Both the position numbers and the translations under genes were made by a program. The notes beneath the pieces are model-generated. The model ran no database searches. It had not been told where the DNA came from and was given only the letters and a program-made list of their open reading frames with translations. Below, in pieces: positions 1 to 46,512 of a stretch of 64,000 bases of DNA; within the stretch, counting starts at the first letter, position 1, and each line of letters starts with the position of its first letter. Source of the stretch: Aurantiacibacter atlanticus (GTDB lineage: Bacteria; Pseudomonadota; Alphaproteobacteria; Sphingomonadales; Sphingomonadaceae); NCBI RefSeq assembly GCF_001077815.2, contig NZ_CP011310.1:620001-684000 (forward strand), read 5' to 3'.

Positions 1-1
1 C

Positions 2-85
2 TCAAACCGTGGTTTCTGGCGTCATTACAAGAAAGTCATGCTGGCATCCGATCCGCAGCCGTCTCCGGCAGTCGCTGTAGCGTAA
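2..85 (+). CDS. C-terminal end of ring-hydroxylating dioxygenase alpha subunit (partial)
   Basis: Only the last 27 codons lie in the window, in the frame starting at base 2 and ending in TAA at 83-85. The peptide contains NRGFWRHYKKVM, which resembles the end of Rieske non-heme iron oxygenase large subunits (R-x-F-W followed by basic residues). The beta subunit begins 58 bases downstream, the usual alpha-beta order. The Rieske and mononuclear iron domains would be to the left of the window. The fragment is short, so the call leans on the neighbour. Confidence 0.55.
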   Translation, partial: SNRGFWRHYKKVMLASDPQPSPAVAVA

Positions 86-143
86 TTTGATCGCGGCCGA
101 GCGTATCGGCAAACACACTAAATATACTGAGGATGGCGAGGCC

Positions 144-632
144 ATGGTTACAATTGAAGAGCGTGTGCGGATTGAAGAATTTTTGTTCAAGGAGGCGCGG
201 CTCGCTGATGAATCCTGCTATTCTGAATGGGAGGCCTTGGTTGACGATGATATGCATTACTGGGTGCCTGTCAAAGAAGATCAGAAGCAGGAATCCGATC
301 AGGTTTCGCTTCTCAATGACAACCGTGCGCGTCTTGCCACTCGCATTCGCCAGTTGAATACCGGTGTTCGGCATGCGCAATTGCCGCCTTCTCGCATGCG
401 CCGGGTCATCTCGAACATTGAAATCGAAGCCACGGGCAATGATGAATATCTCGTCCGATCAAATGTCGTTCTTTATGAATACAGGCTTCAGGCGGTTAAA
501 GAGATGGAAGTATGGCCTGCGCGCGTATTACATAAGCTGCGGGAAAAGGACGGCGAACTGAAAATGTTCGCCAAGCACATCTTCCTGCTTAATTCTGAAG
601 GGCCCATTCGGGGTCTCTCCTTCATCATCTAA
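144..632 (+). CDS. Aromatic-ring-hydroxylating dioxygenase beta subunit
   Basis: This 162-residue protein is the small subunit of a Rieske ring-hydroxylating dioxygenase, the alpha3beta3 enzyme that adds O2 across an aromatic ring to give a cis-dihydrodiol. The beta subunit is structural. It shows the family pattern: an N-terminal amphipathic segment, then RLADESCYSEWEALVDDD and MHYWVPV (residues about 18-42), NDNRARLATRI, and R-V-I-S-N-I-E near residue 107. Length is at the short end of the family (about 160-190). The ATG at 144 is chosen because a GGCGAGG stretch lies just upstream; the frame is open further left but lacks a good ribosome site. First complete gene of the catabolic operon. 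Confidence 0.85.
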   Translation: MVTIEERVRIEEFLFKEARLADESCYSEWEALVDDDMHYWVPVKEDQKQESDQVSLLNDNRARLATRIRQLNTGVRHAQLPPSRMRRVISNIEIEATGNDEYLVRSNVVLYEYRLQAVKEMEVWPARVLHKLREKDGELKMFAKHIFLLNSEGPIRGLSFII

Positions 633-670: not shown

Positions 671-1855
671 ATGAATACACTCAGGAAAAATTCAGCAAAG
701 GCAGCCATTACCGGGCTGGGAGAAAGCGCATTTTCCCGCAAACCCGGCTCGACGCCCAGGGTTCTGGCCGTTGAGGCTTGTCTTGCTGCTGTTGCTGATC
801 GTGCGATTGACATGAGTGCAATTGATGGGCTGTTGCTGAACAGGAGCCCGATCGAAGATGGTAGTGTCCTCCCGCTCCATCTGAAACGCGATCTCTGCTT
901 GGGCGATTTGTCCTTGCTGGCGAGTATCGAAGCGGAAGGCAGTTCTGCGATACAGATGATCCAATATGCCAGTGCCGCGATTGCGGCCGGCACGGCGACC
1001 AATGTACTGTGTGTTTTCGCCGATGCACCTGTAGGCGCCGCTGGTGCAGGTGCCTCCTATTCCATATCCATGGACATGACAGGTCTGCCCGGGTGGGATG
1101 AGTGGAATGGCCTGATCGGTGCGACAAGCGGCTTCGCACTGTCGGCCCAGCGCTATTTCCACCTTCATGGCGCTGATTCACACACGCTATATGCATCAGC
1201 TGCGGCAGACAGGGAATGGGCCTCGCATAATCCCAAGGCGTTTCTCCGTGATCCGCTGAGTGAGGACGAGTATTTCAATTCCCGCTGGATTGTGGAGCCG
1301 TTGAGGTTGTTTGACTGCGCTTATCCAGTGAATGGCGCTGTAGCGGTGTTGGTTAGCGCAGCGCAGGATGCGGAGGACGGCCCCAATCCACCTGTCTATC
1401 TGCATGCTTTCGGACAAGGTCATTCCGGGGCCCGACATTTCGCCGGTAATGAGCCGGAAACACTAACTGGCGCAGAAATTGCGGCTCGAACTCTGTTGAA
1501 CGGGATTGGCGCGACGCCAGCATTATTCGACTATTGCGAATTCTATGCCCCTTTCAGCATCAGCACAATTCTCTCCCTTGAGAATTATGGATTGTGTCAA
1601 CCGGGTGAGGCAGGGGAAATGATCGCCAGCGGCGCGACGCGGCCCGGCGGCCAACTGCCGATAAATACCGGGGGTGGGCATCTTTCATCCTATTATCTCC
1701 AGGGAATGACGCCAGTTCATGAGGCGGTTATTCAGGCGCGCGGTCATGGGGGTGAGCGCCAGGTGCCCAATAATGATGTCGGACTTGCCACAGGCTTTGG
1801 CGGTCGGATGGAATATCATGCGGCAATGACCGTCAGCCCACACAGGCAGTTGTAA
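671..1855 (+). CDS. Thiolase-like protein without the active-site cysteine (Ltp2/SCP2-thiolase type)
   Basis: A 394-residue thiolase-superfamily protein. The position that holds the nucleophilic Cys in true thiolases reads EAEGSSA (residues 87-93), with no Cys nearby, so Claisen thiolysis is unlikely. The late His-containing loop is kept as GGGHLSSYY (334-342), and tyrosines occur at 288, 292, 341 and 342. Ltp2-type lipid-transfer thiolases work with a DUF35 partner as retro-aldolases on 3-hydroxyacyl-CoA esters and, as I recall, use tyrosines near 294 and 344. A DUF35 gene follows after one base, and an acyl-CoA ligase comes next, so a CoA-ester side-chain aldolase is the best guess. The substrate is unknown. 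A weak ribosome site precedes the ATG. Confidence 0.75.
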   Translation: MNTLRKNSAKAAITGLGESAFSRKPGSTPRVLAVEACLAAVADRAIDMSAIDGLLLNRSPIEDGSVLPLHLKRDLCLGDLSLLASIEAEGSSAIQMIQYASAAIAAGTATNVLCVFADAPVGAAGAGASYSISMDMTGLPGWDEWNGLIGATSGFALSAQRYFHLHGADSHTLYASAAADREWASHNPKAFLRDPLSEDEYFNSRWIVEPLRLFDCAYPVNGAVAVLVSAAQDAEDGPNPPVYLHAFGQGHSGARHFAGNEPETLTGAEIAARTLLNGIGATPALFDYCEFYAPFSISTILSLENYGLCQPGEAGEMIASGATRPGGQLPINTGGGHLSSYYLQGMTPVHEAVIQARGHGGERQVPNNDVGLATGFGGRMEYHAAMTVSPHRQL

Positions 1856-1856
1856 A

Positions 1857-2279
1857 ATGGCGGATCGTATTGGCATATCACCCCTGACGGAAAACGGACC
1901 CTTCGTTGGCGAAATCCGGGAGCGGGCCGAGGCTGGCACTCTTTGCTGTTTGCAATGTTCGAACGGCTGCGGCGTGACGGACTATGCCGCGCGGATCTGT
2001 CCCGCATGCTCGGGACCTCTTGAATTGGGCGAAACCGCTGGCAGGGGACGGGTTCATTCCTTTGCGGTTAATCACATCAATTACACGCCGAAATTGGAAG
2101 CGCCTTATGTCATCTTGTTCGTTGAGCTTGATGAAGGCTGCCGGCTCGCAGCGCTTCTCGACAAGAACGAGACGGGCATGCCCGCCGTTGGAGATTCTGT
2201 AAAATTCGCAAGCGCAAGTGACGGAGCCGTGTATTTTGACTACTTAAAGACACCTGAGAGCGAAATAGCGCTTCGGTGA
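1857..2279 (+). CDS. DUF35 zinc-ribbon/OB-fold protein, partner of the thiolase-like protein
   Basis: A 140-residue protein with two parts typical of the family: a rubredoxin-like zinc ribbon at about residues 29-51 (cysteines in CCLQC and CPAC) and an OB-fold acyl-CoA-binding domain from about residue 60 (RGRVHSFAVNH, then YVILFVELDEG). Such proteins bind thiolase-like subunits and complete their active site or CoA pocket. The gene starts one base after the thiolase-like stop codon, which implies coupled translation and a 1:1 complex. It has no enzymatic role on its own that can be read from sequence. Confidence 0.85.
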   Translation: MADRIGISPLTENGPFVGEIRERAEAGTLCCLQCSNGCGVTDYAARICPACSGPLELGETAGRGRVHSFAVNHINYTPKLEAPYVILFVELDEGCRLAALLDKNETGMPAVGDSVKFASASDGAVYFDYLKTPESEIALR

Positions 2280-2286
2280 AAAAGGG

Positions 2287-3969
2287 ATGAGGTTGGATAT
2301 GGATGCGGTTTTAGATTCGAAATTGATGGATAGCACGCGCACCGTTTCGGACGGTTCAGGCTCGAACCTCCATTACGACAATAGGCTGGAGGTTCTTCCC
2401 CGCGATCTTGTTCGACGTACGGGAGTGAATAATCCGACGAGAACAGCTTATATTTGCGGAGATCGCCAAGCAACTTGGGGTCAGATGCATGAACGCTCTG
2501 ACCTGATCGCTGCGGTCCTTTTGTCTAAGGGGGTCCGTGTAGGTGATGCGGTCGCCATTATCGCCCCTGAGTGCATAGAAGTATACGAACATTTCTTCGC
2601 TTGCATGAAGATGGGTGCAGTCCGTGTCGGAGTAAATCGAAGGTTTGCTCGGCCCGAAATTTTGCATGTGCTCAAGGATTCAGGCGCCAAGTTCTTCTTT
2701 GTTCATGCAGCATGCGCCGATCTTTCGGATCAGCTCAAGGAAGATTTGAGGCAACTCGATATTACAATTATCGGGTTTGGCGGCGAGCATGGGTTTGAAG
2801 AAGATCAGGAAACACTGATCAATGCTGTCGAAACCGTGCCGGAAATGCCGCCGCTTTCAAGCGCTGACCCACTTTTTTACAGCTACACCTCGGGGACTAC
2901 CGGGGTACCAAAGGGCGCAGTGCTTACCAACGGCGGCGTGACGATGACGATTCTCCACGCGCTGGCGGAATTCGGCTTCGTTCGTGACGATCGCTTTTTT
3001 CTGCCTACCGGCAACGCCTGGGTCGCCGTTGTTCTTGCCTTTCTCGGTCTTGGCAATGGTATGGCCCAAATCATTGCCGACGGGGATTACAATCGGGAAA
3101 CTTTCTTCGACACTGTGAAGGAGCAAGCGGCAACGACGTTCCTTCTTGCCCCGACAATGCTGAAGTGGGCTCTGGAAGATAACAAGAAAACCCCGTTTGA
3201 TCTGTCTTCTGTTCGTATGATTATATACGGATCATCTCCTTCTTCCCCGCATCTGATCCAAAGCGTTCATGAAACCTTTGGAAAAGAAATGGTGAATGTT
3301 TACGCCCTTACAGAAACCACCTGGGGCGGGGTTACTTTTCTTTCACCTGAAGATCATCGCATTGGACTTACTGAAAAGCCTGAACTGCTCTCTTCAGTAG
3401 GGCGTCCGGCATCCCATTTCGAAATATCGGTGCGAGATGAGAGCGCCCAGCCAGTTCCTCAAGGAGAAGCTGGCGAGATCTGGCTGCGTGGTCCAACGAC
3501 GATGGCAGGTTATCTCAATCTGCCAGAGCAAACTGATAAGGTTCTGAAGGATGGTTGGTTACGTACCAATGATATAGGTAAAGTGGATGAAGACGGGTAT
3601 CTCTATCTTCTGGACCGCAAGAATTTCATGATCATCACCGGCGGCGTCAACGTCTATCCGGCGTCGGTTGAAGGGGTCATGGGCAAACACCCTGACGTTG
3701 CAGCAATCTGTGTTATCGGCCTTCCGCATCCCGAATGGGGAGAAGCGGTTGTCGCTGTGGTCCGCCGCAACAAGTCGGGCGGACAGGTTGGCGCGGCCGA
3801 TCTGATCGAATTCTGCCGGGACAAGCTCAACGGTCCATCAACGCCGAAGCACGTCTTTTTTACTGACGAAGAATTCCCGCTAACCTCTAATTTCAAAGTC
3901 CGGAAGAATGTAGTTCGCGATCTTCTTCTGTCGAAGCCGACCGATATTCCGTGGGATATCGAGGAATGA
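2287..3969 (+). CDS. Acyl-CoA synthetase / AMP-dependent ligase
   Basis: A 560-residue member of the ANL superfamily that would activate a carboxylic acid to its CoA ester via an acyl-AMP. The P-loop YTSGTTGVPKG is at residues 200-210, the adenine-binding YALTETTWGG at about 339, the hinge region DRKNFMIITGGVNVYP near 447, and a C-terminal Lys in NFKVRKNVVRD. Acid specificity cannot be read. It sits in the dioxygenase operon after the thiolase-like/DUF35 pair, so it probably loads a side-chain acid for that pair. The ATG at 2287 is close to its AAAGGG; an in-frame ATG at 2299 is the alternative. The coding sequence is noticeably AT-richer than the later housekeeping genes. Confidence 0.88.
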   Translation: MRLDMDAVLDSKLMDSTRTVSDGSGSNLHYDNRLEVLPRDLVRRTGVNNPTRTAYICGDRQATWGQMHERSDLIAAVLLSKGVRVGDAVAIIAPECIEVYEHFFACMKMGAVRVGVNRRFARPEILHVLKDSGAKFFFVHAACADLSDQLKEDLRQLDITIIGFGGEHGFEEDQETLINAVETVPEMPPLSSADPLFYSYTSGTTGVPKGAVLTNGGVTMTILHALAEFGFVRDDRFFLPTGNAWVAVVLAFLGLGNGMAQIIADGDYNRETFFDTVKEQAATTFLLAPTMLKWALEDNKKTPFDLSSVRMIIYGSSPSSPHLIQSVHETFGKEMVNVYALTETTWGGVTFLSPEDHRIGLTEKPELLSSVGRPASHFEISVRDESAQPVPQGEAGEIWLRGPTTMAGYLNLPEQTDKVLKDGWLRTNDIGKVDEDGYLYLLDRKNFMIITGGVNVYPASVEGVMGKHPDVAAICVIGLPHPEWGEAVVAVVRRNKSGGQVGAADLIEFCRDKLNGPSTPKHVFFTDEEFPLTSNFKVRKNVVRDLLLSKPTDIPWDIEE

Positions 3970-4356
3970 GTCAAGAAAAAATGCCTGTGTGACCGCCTGA
4001 CCAAAATAATTTCTCGGTGAGACGAATAATTGCAGCAGTAAATCAGATCAGATGTGATCCGCGGTGAATTGTTGCGGTGGCGCGACCGAAATTATAAGGG
4101 AAGTATAATGACGCAACGTCAGGAATTGTTGCGCCCCATAGGTGAGATTTCTGCCCTTGTTCTTCGCGTGATGCTTTTCCTCTGTCGCCGGTAAGGTATT
4201 GGCGTCTTTTGGTGAATGGCTGTTCCCTGCAAGATCTACGCTCGCCACTTGGTCGCGCCAAGGCATCTGGTGTCGGAAGTGAAAGCGTTGTTCATCCGAT
4301 TGAATTCTACACTGAACTCAAAAATAATTGCGCAAAGCTGTGAAGGGGGATCCACT
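3970..4356 (+). other. 387-bp intergenic region, probable internal promoter of the meta-cleavage genes
   Basis: No gene is recognised. The stretch is AT-rich and carries a dyad at 4046-4059, two direct copies of GAATTGTTGCG (4066-4076 and 4123-4133) and a possible promoter: TTGTTG at 4069-4074, 17 bases, TTATAA at 4092-4097. A TATAAT at 4104-4109 is a second candidate -10. The frame of the downstream hydratase is open back to 4216, but there is a clear ribosome site before 4357. Confidence 0.4.
4046..4059. promoter_or_regulatory. Operator-like palindrome GATCA-N4-TGATC
   Basis: Two perfect 5-bp arms, GATCA and TGATC, with a 4-bp spacer, lying about 20-45 bases upstream of the candidate promoter elements and 298 bases before the hydratase start. 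The shape fits a dimeric repressor or activator site. No regulator gene is in the window to pair with it. Confidence 0.35.
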
Positions 4357-5139
4357 ATGGATCGAGAAATAAGGGAAGCGGCTGACCGTTTGTGGGACGC
4401 AATGCAATCGGGCGAAGCGTGTGCGCCGGTCCGCGACCTGATTGGTGAACGTGAAATCGAAGCGGCGTATAAAGTCCAGGAGCTGAATACCGAGCGCAGG
4501 CTTGGACAAGGTCGTCGCATCGTGGGCCGCAAGACCGGGCTGACCGCGAAATCGGTGCAGGCGCAACTCGGCGTTTCGCAGCCTGATTACGGGATGCTGT
4601 TTGACGACATGGACATACCGTCAGGAACCGAAATTTCGGTGTCGGAGGTGATGCAGCCCAAGGTCGAGGCCGAGATCGCCTTCATCATGGGCGACATCCT
4701 TGATACCGAATTGCTGACTTCTGCAGATATTATCGCTTCGGTCGACTTTGCAGTGCCTGCGATCGAAGTCGTGGGTAGTCGGGTTCAAGATTGGGATATC
4801 CGCATCCACGATACCATTGCCGACAACGCGTCGAGCGGTGTGTTCGTGCTGGGCGATTCCCCACGTCGGCTGTCGGAAATCGACTTGCGCCTTTGCGGAA
4901 TGGTGATGGAACGCCGCGGGCAGCCCATATCGAACGGTGCGGGAATCGCATGTCTGGGAAGCCCGGTCACTGCCTGCCTTTGGCTGGCCAAGGTCATGGC
5001 GCGTGAAGGTCGCCCCCTCAGTAAAGGCGATATTGTTTTAACAGGTGCTCTTGGGCCGATGGCGCAAGTGGCTGCGGGCGACGCTGTCACGGCACGCATC
5101 AACGGGCTGGGCTCAGTTACCGCCTGCTTTCAGGATTGA
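4357..5139 (+). CDS. 2-hydroxypenta-2,4-dienoate hydratase (DmpE/MhpD type)
   Basis: A 260-residue protein of the fumarylacetoacetate-hydrolase-like hydratase/decarboxylase family, which adds water to 2-hydroxypenta-2,4-dienoate to give 4-hydroxy-2-oxovalerate in the lower meta-cleavage pathway. Recognisable segments are [17 protein letters not shown] (about 50-66), the metal-ligand region [11 protein letters not shown] (about 97-107) and D-N-A-S-S-G (about 155). Length matches the usual 261. The ATG at 4357 follows GAAGGGGGATC, an excellent ribosome site. It is followed by the aldehyde dehydrogenase and aldolase, its pathway partners. A paralogue (7153-7926) follows later; the first position in dmpEFGHI order argues that this copy is the hydratase. 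Confidence 0.85.
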
Positions 5140-5156
5140 ATGGAGTGACTAACGAG

Positions 5157-6104
5157 ATGGTTGATAATCCCAAACGGAAATGCGCGATCATCGGGTCTGG
5201 AAATATCGGCACAGACCTGATGATCAAAGTGATGCGGACGTCAGACGTCCTCGAAGTGGGCGCGATGGTCGGTATCGATCCTGAGTCCGATGGTCTCGCC
5301 CGAGCCCAGAAGCTTGGCATTTCAACCACCCATGAAGGCATGGATGGCTTGGTAGCGATGCCGATATGGAAAGATATCGACGTGGTGTTCGATGCGACCT
5401 CGGCCGGGGCCCATCACCACCATAATGAACTTTGCGTGCGTGACGGCAAACGCATGGTGGACCTGACGCCGGCGGCCATCGGCCCCTATTGCATCCCCGT
5501 AATCAACGGGGAAGAGCATCTCGATAAGAGCAATGTGAACATGGTCACCTGCGGCGGCCAGGCAACCATTCCTATCGTTCACGCCATCAGCCGGGTTTCC
5601 GAGCGGGTTCCATATGCAGAAATCGTGGCTTCAGTCGCTTCCAAATCGGCCGGCCCCGGCACGCGCGCCAATATTGACGAGTTTACCGAGACGACGACCT
5701 TGGGAGTGGAAGTGTTGGGGGGCGCCGAAAACGGCAAGGCGATCATCATCCTCAATCCGGCAGAGCCGCCGCTTATCATGCGCGATACCGTTTATGCATT
5801 GTCAATGGGCGGCGATGAAGCTGAAATTGAAAAGTCGGTGAACGAAATGGTCGCGGCTGTACAAGAATACGTGCCAGGATATCGCCTCAAGCAGAAGGTT
5901 CAGTTTGAGCGGTTCGGCGGCAACAGGACATTGAAAATACCGGAAATCGGTGAATTTGAAGGCCTGAAGGTGACGGTGTTCCTCGAGGTCGAAGGGGCAG
6001 CACATTATCTGCCGGCTTATGCCGGTAATCTGGACATTATGACATCTGCGGGACTGGCTATCGCCGAACGCATGATGAAAAATCCAAGAAAGGCGGCGTT
6101 GTGA
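5157..6104 (+). CDS. Acetaldehyde dehydrogenase (acylating)
   Basis: A 315-residue enzyme that oxidises acetaldehyde with NAD and CoA to acetyl-CoA, receiving the aldehyde by channelling from the aldolase encoded next. It begins with a Rossmann motif [13 protein letters not shown] (about 8-20), has the catalytic-cysteine loop [15 protein letters not shown] (about 127-141, Cys in VTCGG) and the [19 protein letters not shown] segment near 163. Length agrees with MhpF/DmpF (about 312-316). ATG 5157 is preceded by GGAG at the right distance; a TTG at 5136 overlapping the previous stop is less likely. The stop overlaps the aldolase GTG by four bases. Confidence 0.95.
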
Positions 6105-7153
6105 CTGGACTGATCAAAGATCCGACGAAGGACAAAATCTACGTGCAGGACGTGACCCTGCGCGATGGCATGCACGCTATCCGTCATCTTTACGGAATAG
6201 ATCACGTCCGGAAAATCGCTAGCGCGCTTGACCAAGCCGGCGTCGATGCAATTGAAATTGCGCATGGCGACGGTATCCGCGGTTCGAGCTTCAATTATGG
6301 TTTTGGCGCGCATTCCGATTGGGAATGGATCGAAGCGGTTGCTGATTCCATTGACCAGGCCGTGCTGACCACACTGATCCTCCCCGGTATCTGCACTATC
6401 ACGGACCTGAAGCGAGCCTATGACGTTGGCGTGCGCTCTGTCCGGGTCGCTACTCATTGCACGGAAGCAGACGTGGCGCGTCAACATATCGGTGCTGCGC
6501 GCGATCTTGGCATGGATACATGCGGCTTTCTTATGATGAGCCACATGGTTGAACCGGAAAAATTGGCGGAACAGGCGCTCTTGATGGAATCATATGGCGC
6601 ACAATGCGTTTATGTGACCGATTCCGGCGGCGCGCTGGATATGGATGGCTGTGCTGCCAGGTTCGACGCCTATGACGCCGTTCTGAAACCTGAAACCGAG
6701 CGTGGCGTGCATGCGCACCACAATCTCTCGCTTGGTGTCGCCAATTCGATTGTTGCGGTGCAAAAGGGTGCGCGGCGGGTCGATGCCTCGCTTGCCGGTA
6801 TGGGCGCTGGTGCAGGTAATGCCCCGCTGGAAGTTTTCATCGCAGCAGCTGATCGAAAAGGCTGGAACACAGGGTGCGATGTCTACAAGCTTATGGATGC
6901 CGCAGAAGAACTTGTTCGTCCGCTTCAGGATCGCCCCGTACGTGTTGACAGGGAAACCCTGATGCTCGGTTATGCGGGCGTTTATTCCAGCTTCCTTCGC
7001 CATTCTGAAAAGGCGGCCGAAGAATATGGCGTCGATGTGCGCGAAATTCTGCAGGAGCTTGGTCGCCGCGGCATGGTCGGCGGCCAGGAAGACATGATCG
7101 TCGATGTCGCTCTCGATATTCAGAAGTCTCGTGAGACCATGGGGGCGTCATAG
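6101..7153 (+). CDS. 4-hydroxy-2-oxovalerate aldolase
   Basis: A 350-residue class II (divalent-metal) aldolase that splits 4-hydroxy-2-oxovalerate to pyruvate and acetaldehyde. It shows the HMGL-like TIM-barrel signature [13 protein letters not shown] (about 13-25, catalytic R-D and H), the [10 protein letters not shown] segment and the metal-binding H-A-H-H-N motif near residue 204. The C-terminal domain forms the interface with the acylating dehydrogenase. The GTG start overlaps the dehydrogenase stop (GTGA), a sign of translational coupling consistent with the known bifunctional complex. Confidence 0.95.
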
Positions 7154-7926
7154 TGGAAGATCTGGAAGCCCTCGCTGTGCAGCTCGATGATGCTCAACGC
7201 GAAGTGCGGGCCATACCCCAGCTGACAAAAAATCGTCCGGGCCTGACGACTTCCGAGGCCTATGCTATCCAGGCAATGTCCGTCGCGCGTCGGATCGCCC
7301 GTGGAGAGGTGCGTATCGGTGTCAAAATGGGGCTGACCAGCCGGGCTAAAATGGTCCAAGTCGGTGTAAACGAGGCCGCGTGGGGCCGCCTGACCGACGC
7401 AATGTTGCTGGAGGAAGGCGGGACCCTGTCGAAGTCGGCCTTCATCCATCCACGGCTTGAACCCGAAATCGCATTTCTTCTGAAGAAGCGATTGAAGGGC
7501 AAGGTTTCTCCTGTCGAGGCGCTTTCTGCCGTCGAGGCGATCGCCCCGGCCATGGAGGTGATCGACAGTCGTTTTGAAAACTTCAAGTTCGCTCTGCCGG
7601 ATGTTGTTGCTGACAACACTTCCTCGTCCGGCCTGGTTCTGGGTGCATGGCACAACCCTGCAAGCGTTGATTTCTCAAATCTCGGCATGGTGCTTCTTGT
7701 CAACGGACGACCCGCGCAAATCGGTTCGTCAGCTGCGATCTTGGGCCATCCGCTTCGTTCATTGGTCTCAGCTGCGCGGCTTACTGCCGAATGGGGCGAG
7801 GCACTGGAGCCCGGCGATATCATAATGGCGGGCGGAGCGACGGCGGCACATCCGGCGAGCGTAGGAGAAACGATCAGCCTGGAAGTGCAAAATCTGGGTG
7901 GCTGCTCTATTACAGTCGAAGCCTGA
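7153..7926 (+). CDS. 2-oxo-3-hexenedioate (4-oxalocrotonate) decarboxylase-like protein
   Basis: A 257-residue paralogue of the hydratase at 4357, with VGVKMGLTSRAKMVQVGV-like substrate loop (about 56-72), the metal-ligand stretch PRLEPEIAFLL (about 100-110) and ADNTSSSG near 154. In dmp/xyl operons the gene after the aldolase is the decarboxylase DmpH/XylI, which acts on the keto form of 4-oxalocrotonate made by the tautomerase. That position is the main reason for this call. The GTG start shares one base with the preceding TAG. The adjacent tautomerase is broken and no hydroxymuconic semialdehyde dehydrogenase is seen, so this branch may be inactive or complemented elsewhere. A second hydratase is the alternative. 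Confidence 0.75.
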   Translation: MEDLEALAVQLDDAQREVRAIPQLTKNRPGLTTSEAYAIQAMSVARRIARGEVRIGVKMGLTSRAKMVQVGVNEAAWGRLTDAMLLEEGGTLSKSAFIHPRLEPEIAFLLKKRLKGKVSPVEALSAVEAIAPAMEVIDSRFENFKFALPDVVADNTSSSGLVLGAWHNPASVDFSNLGMVLLVNGRPAQIGSSAAILGHPLRSLVSAARLTAEWGEALEPGDIIMAGGATAAHPASVGETISLEVQNLGGCSITVEA

Positions 7927-7930
7927 CACG

Positions 7931-8127
7931 ACGCCGATTTTATAGGTGATGAAACTGGACAGACTGCCACAGGAGCGACCAAAGCCGTGATACCATCGAT
8001 GCACTTGCGCAATCGGTGCGGGTGATTATTCGCGAAGTCCCTGCTGAACATTTCGGTGTCGCAGGCATATCCAAAGCGGAAGAACATGCGCAAGCCAAAC
8101 TCCCGCGACGACGCCAGAAAGGAATAA
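7931..8127 (+). pseudogene. 4-oxalocrotonate tautomerase relic (dmpI position)
   Basis: Between the decarboxylase and the hydrolase lie the remains of a tautomerase. One frame beginning at 7931 reads T-P-I-L-stop-V-M-K-L-D, like a tautomerase start (M-P-I-L-x-V) whose ATG is now ACG and with an internal TAG at 7943. A second frame, offset by one, carries RDTIDALAQS then VRVIIREVPAEHFGVAGISKAE (7986-8081), the conserved second half of 4-OT. The middle looks shortened. The catalytic Pro1 therefore cannot be made as one piece with the rest. The core frame runs without a stop into the hydrolase gene. Position matches dmpI exactly. The exact number of lesions is uncertain. Confidence 0.75.
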
Positions 8128-8129
8128 GA

Positions 8130-8954
8130 ATGAGCGACAACCCCGAGATTGGAAAATCCATTGACGCCCAGGGTGTGAAAACCAATTATCACGATATGGG
8201 TGAAGGGCACCCTGTCATTTTGATACATGGTTCGGGCCCAGGGGTTACTGCATGGGCGAACTGGCGGCTCAACCTGCCCGTGCTGGCGGAATCCATGCGT
8301 GCGATCGCGCCCGATATGCTGGGCTTTGGCTATACAGAACGCCCGGCCGACGGCATCTACAATCTGGAACGGTGGCGGAAGCACCTGATGGATCTTGCCG
8401 ATGCGCTCGATCTTGATCAGTTTGACATCATCGGCAATTCCTTTGGCGGGGCGCTCGCGCTTTCGATGGCCGCTAATCATCCTGATCGCGTTCGCCGTAT
8501 CGTGCTGATGGGCGCGGCCGGCCTTGAATTCGAACTGACAGATGCTCTGGACAAGGTGTGGGGCTATGAACCGTCAGTAGAGGCCATGCGCGAAATGCTC
8601 GATATTTTCGCATATGACAATTCGCTGGTGTCAAACGAACTTGCCGAAATGCGTTACCGTGCAAGTATCCAACCGGGTTTCCAGGAGGCGTTCAGTGCCA
8701 TGTTCCCGGCTCCGCGCCAGCAGCATATCTCTGCGCTGTCGACGCCAGAAGATGAAATCGCGAAGATAACCAGCCCGGCTATGATGCTTCATGGGCGGGA
8801 AGATCGCGTTCTGCCAATGAGCACAAGCCTTCGCTTGTTCGAATTGCTGGAAACTGCGGAAGTTCATCTGTTCGGGAAATGCGGACATTGGACGCAGATA
8901 GAACATAAGGACCGTTTCAATTCGCTCGTGAGTGAATTCCTCACTCGCGCGTAA
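8130..8954 (+). CDS. Meta-cleavage product hydrolase (2-hydroxymuconic semialdehyde hydrolase family)
   Basis: A 274-residue alpha/beta-hydrolase that cleaves the C-C bond of a meta-ring-fission product to 2-hydroxypenta-2,4-dienoate plus an acid. It has the family oxyanion motif HGSGPGVTAWANW (about 32-44), the nucleophile elbow GNSFGG (Ser near 108), the Asp in HGREDRV (about 221) and the His in GHWTQIEH (about 250). Closest by pattern to DmpD/XylF/TodF/CumD enzymes. The ATG at 8130 follows AAGGAATAAG, so this start is preferred to the upstream GTG at 8016, which belongs to the tautomerase relic. Its product is the substrate of the hydratase at 4357. Confidence 0.92.
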   Translation: MSDNPEIGKSIDAQGVKTNYHDMGEGHPVILIHGSGPGVTAWANWRLNLPVLAESMRAIAPDMLGFGYTERPADGIYNLERWRKHLMDLADALDLDQFDIIGNSFGGALALSMAANHPDRVRRIVLMGAAGLEFELTDALDKVWGYEPSVEAMREMLDIFAYDNSLVSNELAEMRYRASIQPGFQEAFSAMFPAPRQQHISALSTPEDEIAKITSPAMMLHGREDRVLPMSTSLRLFELLETAEVHLFGKCGHWTQIEHKDRFNSLVSEFLTRA

Positions 8955-46269: not shown

Positions 46270-46377
46270 TTTTCGCACTTGCGAAAAAACGCGGCCGCCA
46301 GCATATGTCTCCCTGCCTTTCAGGCATCCTCTCCCAAAACTTCCAAGGCCCGGTCGGTTTCGATCGGGCCTTTTTTT
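46270..46377 (+). ncRNA. Candidate small RNA with three hairpins and a classical terminator
   Basis: The plus strand ends in one of the best intrinsic terminators of the window (46345-46377), yet no gene precedes it on this strand: scoA points the other way. Upstream are two more perfect hairpins: TTTTCGC/GCGAAAA (46270-46276 with 46281-46287) and TGCCT/AGGCA (46314-46318 with 46322-46326). An open pyrimidine-rich stretch ATCCTCTCCC with anti-Shine-Dalgarno character lies between the second hairpin and the terminator. This layout is typical of Hfq-dependent alphaproteobacterial sRNAs. The 5' end is unknown and may lie further left. Family not identified. Confidence 0.6.
46345..46377 (+). terminator. 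Intrinsic terminator
   Basis: AAGGCCCG (46345-46352) pairs with CGGGCCTT (46365-46372), continued inside by GTCG/CGAT around a GTTT loop, for a 12-bp stem (with one G-T pair), and is followed by seven T (46371-46377). Confidence 0.9.
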
Positions 46378-46512
46378 GTCTGCGCCCCGCAGCGCCAGAG
46401 AATTGGCTATTCTGGCACAATCATCGTGCTGGCAGGTTTGTATTATGCGGCGGGGCTTCCTAGGTTTTGCTGCGTTACTGCGTGAACGCAATGCAAGAGG
46501 AATGGGCGGCAC

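Follow-up and report, generated by a model that had tools for sequence, protein, structure and literature searches.

A thiolase-like protein without the catalytic cysteine in an ipfABDEF-type cluster of Aurantiacibacter atlanticus: a probable coenzyme A ester retro-aldolase

The ipfABDEF upper pathway is known in Sphingomonas Ibu-2, Rhizorhabdus wittichii MPO218 (plasmid pIBU218) and Sphingopyxis granuli RW412, of which MPO218 is the system compared here. As told in later papers, a coenzyme A (CoA) ligase and the formation of a dihydrodiol precede a retro-aldolase step, that of IpfD, which gives propionyl-CoA and 4-isobutylcatechol; an ipfD insertion mutant does not grow on ibuprofen, in an account that stresses the instability of the region (PMC9195938). 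Ibu-2 is also described as stripping the side chain from 2-phenylpropionic, 3- and 4-tolylacetic and 2-(4-tolyl)propionic acids (PMC6063337). For aldolases partnered by a DUF35 protein, Tyr294 is given as the base and Tyr344 as the acid of TcLtp2, with His296 in the oxyanion hole, while Tyr302 and Cys304 of CtSal are catalytic and Gly391 and Gln161 are its proposed oxyanion hole (PMC12329534). No paper treating both IpfD and Ltp2 was found in the open-licence literature. The stretch analysed here, a window of 64,000 nucleotides of Aurantiacibacter atlanticus (contig NZ_CP011310.1, positions 620,001 to 684,000 of the forward strand), opens within an operon that is an ipfABDEF-type aryl side-chain removal cluster of a distant branch. 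Its thiolase look-alike, which has no catalytic Cys, probably detaches the acid side chain, in the form of a CoA ester, from an aromatic ring that is left as a catechol. New points are two tyrosines and a histidine (Tyr292, Tyr342 and His383) invariant in the dioxygenase-linked family, a four-cysteine (C4) pattern in the DUF35 partner without counterpart in IpfE, and the decay of two lower-pathway genes.

All genes of the operon lie on the forward strand. The gene for the alpha subunit (A, IpfA-like, 432 residues; Pfam Rieske and Ring_hydroxyl_A) of the ring-hydroxylating dioxygenase is mostly upstream, its 3′ end occupying positions 1..85 (whole gene C1:618787-620085, that is L007:8787-10085), and it keeps the Rieske CxH...CxxH and DGYHxxxxH motifs. 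The beta subunit follows (B, IpfB-like, 87..632; Ring_hydroxyl_B, E 6.3e-29), then the thiolase-like side-chain aldolase without nucleophilic Cys (D, IpfD-like, 394 residues, 671..1855; Thiolase_C_1, E 1.2e-29), its stand-alone DUF35/OB_ChsH2_C partner one base further on (E, IpfE-like, 140 residues, 1857..2279; Pfam E 2.4e-9), and an acyl-CoA ligase (F, IpfF-like, 2299..3969, with a listed open reading frame start at 2287; AMP-binding, E 7.7e-78) with the motif YTSGTTGVPKG. Lower-pathway genes continue on the same strand to 8954. In a tblastn search of plasmids, the top three matches are Paraburkholderia BN5 pBN3, a Sphingopyxis granuli plasmid and pIBU218, all at ∼51%, and the gene order of the window, from alpha and beta through the thiolase-like and OB-fold genes to the AMP-binding one, recurs in the pIBU218 region. 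Global identities to MPO218 IpfA, B, D, E and F are 57.4, 49.2, 51.3, 33.9 and 50.8%, respectively, the value for IpfE being over 115 aligned residues. Since both order and sequence match ipfABDEF, the kind of pathway has already been described. A sequence-only reading of the window had given the coordinates, the one-base gap, the DUF35 partner, the ligase and the adjoining dioxygenase and meta-cleavage genes, and the open reading frames and Pfam bear it out. Its interpretation of a DUF35-partnered CoA-ester retro-aldolase joined to a dioxygenase and a meta-cleavage block is well supported; its view that this matches nothing described does not hold, the third step of ipfABDEF having already been called a retro-aldolase (PMC9195938), and an undescribed hybrid pathway was rejected since the arrangement matches ipf.

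Gly90, within EAEGSSA, occupies the column of the thiolase nucleophile (CASG in 7yvy and 6esq), as the earlier reading had recognised. ‘Cys-less’ applies to the catalytic residue, since Cys occurs at 37, 76, 114, 216, 289 and 309, and Cys114, Cys216 and Cys309 align with Cys of the aldolase 6ok1. The best match in the PDB is TcLtp2 (6ok1_A, E 1.9e-46), and the alignment equates Tyr292 with TcLtp2 Tyr294 and Tyr342 with TcLtp2 Tyr344, in agreement with the Ltp2-type tyrosines first suspected from the sequence. These tyrosines stand at both thiolase His columns, Tyr292 at that of HDxF and Tyr342 at that of GHP, so the His loop thought to be kept is not there. The loop of Tyr342 is 3 residues shorter than in 7yvy, and His337 (GGGH) lies opposite Gln in Ltp2 and Leu in 7yvy. 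The Tyr-x-x-Phe motif is Tyr-Ala-Pro-Phe in the window protein, Tyr-Asp-Ala-Phe in IpfD and Tyr-Asp-His-Phe in Ltp2, Pro294 taking the place of the Ltp2 His and also that of the Cys in HDCF. Gly378 lines up with CtSal Gly391 in the printed alignments (CtSal numbering and the chain positions of 9myr differ by 24), and His383 comes five residues later. Aligned in this way, the residues of the window protein would share the roles of their counterparts, and His383 might substitute for the missing oxyanion residue.

Conservation was followed in the best 80 of 349 stretches of named genomes that encode a relative of the thiolase-like protein, strains 69-11 and Root189 among them. Because the search peptide patterns were taken from an alignment of dioxygenase-linked members, this sample leans to them and is not unbiased. 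With ‘near’ defined as same strand, within 4 kb and over 40 bits, a DUF35 gene is near in all 80 loci (indirect support for an interface between D and E), both dioxygenase subunits in 53, and the two subunits, DUF35 and the ligase together in 42, which means that such a cluster is by itself no proof of ibuprofen degradation. Seven rows (the window, own2, own3, IpfD, BN5, WDL1 and AA-79) were added to the 53 loci, giving 60 dioxygenase-linked rows in which Variovorax WDL1 occurs twice (L066, L013) and own3 has A and B on the other strand. Tyr292, Phe295, Tyr342 and His383 are each found in 60/60. Position 90 has Gly in 57 rows and Ala in the other 3; at position 294, which corresponds to the Cys of HDCF, there are 41 Ala, 17 Pro, one Asn and one Ser. 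His383 is also present in 27/27 rows without the dioxygenase link. Alignment A2, whose 53 rows include the Ltp2 of the genome itself, shows no variation at Tyr292, Phe295 and Tyr342 and has His383 in at least 90%; 8000 candidates had been scored, 1491 of them at E<=1e-20, and of the 120 among the matches listed, 48 entered alignments A2 and A3 and none the tree.

The tree, a quick maximum-likelihood reconstruction of 98 rows, separates a clade of 87 rows (100*) from Ltp2 (100*), Sal (9myr) and the Cys-bearing thiolases, so that the placement among true thiolases envisaged by the sequence-only reading as its refutation did not occur. Several inner supports are only 81-94, and the program warns of long branches meeting, some within the outgroups and some joining the 87-row clade to the Ltp2 rows. 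Inside the 87-row clade, the window protein groups with IpfD in a 64-row group, 60 rows of which are dioxygenase-linked, with a Shimodaira–Hasegawa-like approximate likelihood ratio of 92 (not starred). The rows nearest to it come from Erythrobacteraceae and Novosphingobium and reach 74% identity. Two loci (L047 and L093) and 21 further ones, mostly from Chloroflexota, form a sister clade with thiolase-like and DUF35 genes and no dioxygenase, and a metallo-beta-lactamase-fold gene lies upstream of the pair in both sister-clade loci checked. Among the 27 unlinked rows, Cys294 is found in 24 and Tyr295 in 23 (YDCY, as in Sal), and Tyr342, as in Ltp2, in all 27.

The DUF35 partner of the window has ChsH2(DUF35) (6ok1_B) as its best PDB match, and a search with it returned 3 proteins including the query itself, too few for a profile. 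The zinc-finger pattern CxxC-x(8-14)-CxxC is kept in this protein and in the DUF35 protein of a second cluster of the genome (L008). In stop-to-stop frames it occurs in 30/53 dioxygenase-linked loci and 26/27 others; it is absent in 23/53 dioxygenase-linked loci (for example L022, L024-L028 and L065), from IpfE of MPO218 and from the DUF35 proteins of BN5, WDL1 and AA-79. As only part of the loci have the pattern, a C4 site is not universal in the family. WDL1 and AA-79 retain CxxC and CxxH, making a Cys3His-type site possible there; MPO218 IpfE and BN5 have no CxxC pairs.

Taken together, gene order, homology, residue conservation, phylogeny and the lower-pathway genes present make it very probable that this is an ipfABDEF-type upper pathway in which D and E act as a CoA-ester retro-aldolase yielding a catechol. 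The order of ligase, dioxygenase and retro-aldolase, and their products, would follow what is published for the homologues. Retro-aldol cleavage requires a beta-hydroxyacyl-CoA, which in steroid pathways is made by a hydratase. Here, F would convert an arylacetic or 2-arylpropionic acid to its CoA ester, and the dioxygenase AB would then place two hydroxyls, one on the side-chain-bearing (ipso) ring carbon and one on its neighbour, the ipso hydroxyl serving as the beta-hydroxyl of a beta-hydroxyacyl-CoA. D with its partner E would perform the retro-aldol cleavage: the proton of the ipso hydroxyl would pass to Tyr292, the ring would separate from the side chain as a hydroxy-cyclohexadienone and regain aromaticity as a catechol, and the enolate of acetyl- or propionyl-CoA would be protonated by Tyr342. 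The catechol would then be meta-cleaved and pass through hydratase, aldolase and dehydrogenase. The ipso position, the part played by each residue and the choice of substrate by the window copy are the more conjectural elements of this scheme. Because a dioxygenase can hydroxylate a ring carbon bearing CH2-CO-SCoA or CH(CH3)-CO-SCoA, a hydroxyalkyl side chain, one of the two kinds considered by the earlier reading, is not required.

The genes behind F fit a meta-cleavage route. They encode a 2-oxopent-4-enoate hydratase (4357..5139; NCBIfam PRK11342 308.3 and TIGR03220 258.4 bits, both below cut-offs), whose real start is likely 4357 and not the listed 4216, since the family match begins at residue 51, an acylating acetaldehyde dehydrogenase (5136..6104; TIGR03215, 459.9 bits) and a 4-hydroxy-2-oxovalerate aldolase (6101..7153; TIGR03217, 571.6 bits), both over cut-off, a 2-oxo-3-hexenedioate decarboxylase-like protein (7153..7926; TIGR03218, 239.4 bits) and an HsaD/BphD-like meta-cleavage C-C hydrolase (8016..8954; NF045632, 198.9 bits), both below cut-off. 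In Qipengyuania pacifica (L019), ABDEF is followed by the C-C hydrolase, catechol 2,3-dioxygenase, an HbpS-like protein, 2-hydroxymuconic semialdehyde dehydrogenase and the hydratase, with the 2,3-dioxygenase and the semialdehyde dehydrogenase over curated cut-offs. All 10 relatives of the 11-row clade of the window (L015-L023, L037) have intact copies of these two genes in the cluster, at 57-100% and 61-100% to L019, which makes a catechol the expected product; five relatives have the catechol 2,3-dioxygenase gene behind F, the remaining five ahead of the alpha gene. What is left of the semialdehyde dehydrogenase in the window is, by tblastn, a C-terminal remnant at 4209..4340, 52% identical to L019 residues 451-494; of the catechol 2,3-dioxygenase, a scrap with 45% identity persists upstream of the window (C1:615684-615827, L007:5684-5827), and one search gave two such scraps. 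Of the HbpS-like gene, no remnant turned up when the window was searched with the sequence of the relatives, and an Rfam scan of the window gave no match within the operon. The same scan matched suhB (described as mmgR small RNA) at 46308-46385, with 53.5 bits, over the gathering score.

The wider genome holds other copies of the system. A second full A-B-D-E-F cluster lies at L008:6071-11052 (C1:2772070-2777051), with D 53.6% and A 60.6% identical, and is accompanied by a TonB receptor and a TetR regulator. In a third (L009; L009/L010 is C1:2990000-3012400), A, B and F lie on one strand and D and E on the other, and a gene of the sodium bile acid symporter family (SBF) is near; an Ltp2 and DUF35 pair ∼9 kb from its D is a possible link to steroids. 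Five of the eight alpha-domain matches of ring-hydroxylating dioxygenases in the genome fall between 2.86 and 2.93 Mb. The cluster is accessory, since 2/24 other genomes of the genus encode a relative of D (E<=1e-80). A search for PaaA/PaaC gave no match in the genome and was positive in 4/14 control genomes, making another arylacetate route plausible.

Several observations weigh against assigning a CoA-ester retro-aldolase route to this locus. No dioxygenase was counted nearby in 27/80 relatives, most of them from Chloroflexota that have the thiolase-like and DUF35 genes alone, so D and E are not tied to ring dioxygenation everywhere; among these loci, L032 and L078 are under 4 kb with a beta-subunit fragment present, and the dioxygenase genes of L055 fail the nearness rule. 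Within the 64-row group, IpfD sits in a separate 11-row clade (100*) apart from that of the window. The YAPF motif may go with an altered specificity or activity, and an identity to IpfD of ∼50% would not suffice to fix the substrate; because the clade is distant, ibuprofen itself is an unsafe guess. Catechol 2,3-dioxygenase and the semialdehyde dehydrogenase, intact in 10/10 nearest relatives, are decayed in the window operon; their homologues in the genome, with 86 and 88% identity to those of L019, are at C1:2908176 and C1:2909585, 2.29 Mb off along the contig, so the link to catechol cleavage is a presumed one and the route may be partly disabled in this genome.

A broader proposal can be put forward tentatively, as rather less probable than its contrary. 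The dioxygenase-linked family could represent a third catalytic solution among thiolase-fold aldolases, with two Tyr as in Ltp2, neither His nor Cys in Tyr-x-x-Phe, and the invariant C-terminal His383 as oxyanion residue or proton relay; on that view, an older and widespread route, by which bacteria that have no Paa epoxygenase (as is the case here) degrade aryl-acetic acids of natural or petroleum origin, could have been recruited for ibuprofen only recently. Against ‘widespread’, one study, seeking up to 15 Ipf proteins together, describes the set as not commonly conserved across the genomes it searched (PMC11892951).

Other explanations fare less well. A steroid-style Ltp2/Sal aldolase, acting on a beta-hydroxyl placed on the side chain (or steroid C17) after side-chain dehydrogenation and hydration, is unlikely, even though TcLtp2 is the best PDB match, both Ltp2 tyrosines are kept and the C-C hydrolase scores best, below cut-off, with the family of the steroid hydrolase HsaD. 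In the tree, the window protein is not part of the Ltp2 clade, and it has YAPF without the His of YDHF; in the 18 open reading frames scanned around its gene, neither a MaoC/crotonase hydratase nor an acyl-CoA dehydrogenase was recognised, and the 140-residue DUF35 protein has no MaoC domain by Pfam. The genome also has a separate Ltp2 (L004, 489 bits to TcLtp2, with YDHF), on which ground an Ltp2 orthologue was rejected, as was Sal, whose YDCY with its catalytic Cys is not present. Less credible still is a scaffold, thiolase-like but catalytically dead, that would do no more than hold DUF35 or channel the CoA ester while C-C cleavage is spontaneous or due to another enzyme. Cys and His are indeed lost, and conservation by itself is no proof of catalysis, but four residues invariant in 60/60 rows are unexpected for a scaffold, and the growth defect of the ipfD mutant speaks against it, with the instability of that region in mind (PMC9195938). 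A true SCP2-type thiolase or acyltransferase with its catalytic Cys elsewhere, as the names acetyl-CoA acetyltransferase or thiolase given to the relatives by family models and sources would have it, is the least believable and was rejected, because Gly90, Pro294 and Tyr342 fill the nucleophile, HDCF Cys and GHP His columns and the six Cys of the protein all lie outside them.

The DUF35-linked thiolases (6esq; BbsAB, 7pxp) are homologous and share the arrangement of thiolase and DUF35, but retain the nucleophilic Cys and the His of GH(P/A). The bile acid aldolase CtSal-CtShy(DUF35) (9myr) shares the Tyr base and the DUF35 partner; its acid is Cys304 of YDCY, and Gln352 fills the column of Ltp2 Tyr344, whereas the window protein has Tyr342 and no Cys in the motif. 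The steroid aldolase TcLtp2-ChsH2(DUF35) (6ok1) is a homologous protein with a DUF35 partner and the same Tyr base and acid positions, and its retro-aldol chemistry on a beta-hydroxyacyl-CoA would extend to the window; the motif of the latter has no His, its operon is different, and the genome's own Ltp2 is 31% identical. With ipfABDEF, the window has in common the A-B-D-E-F set and order, the loss of Cys, the two Tyr and the kinds of lower-pathway enzymes (hydratase, decarboxylase, aldolase and acylating dehydrogenase). It differs in lying on a contig of chromosomal size and not in a plasmid record, in its separate clade, in YAPF versus YDAF, in the decay of catechol 2,3-dioxygenase and the semialdehyde dehydrogenase, and in a DUF35 C4 pattern that IpfE does not have.

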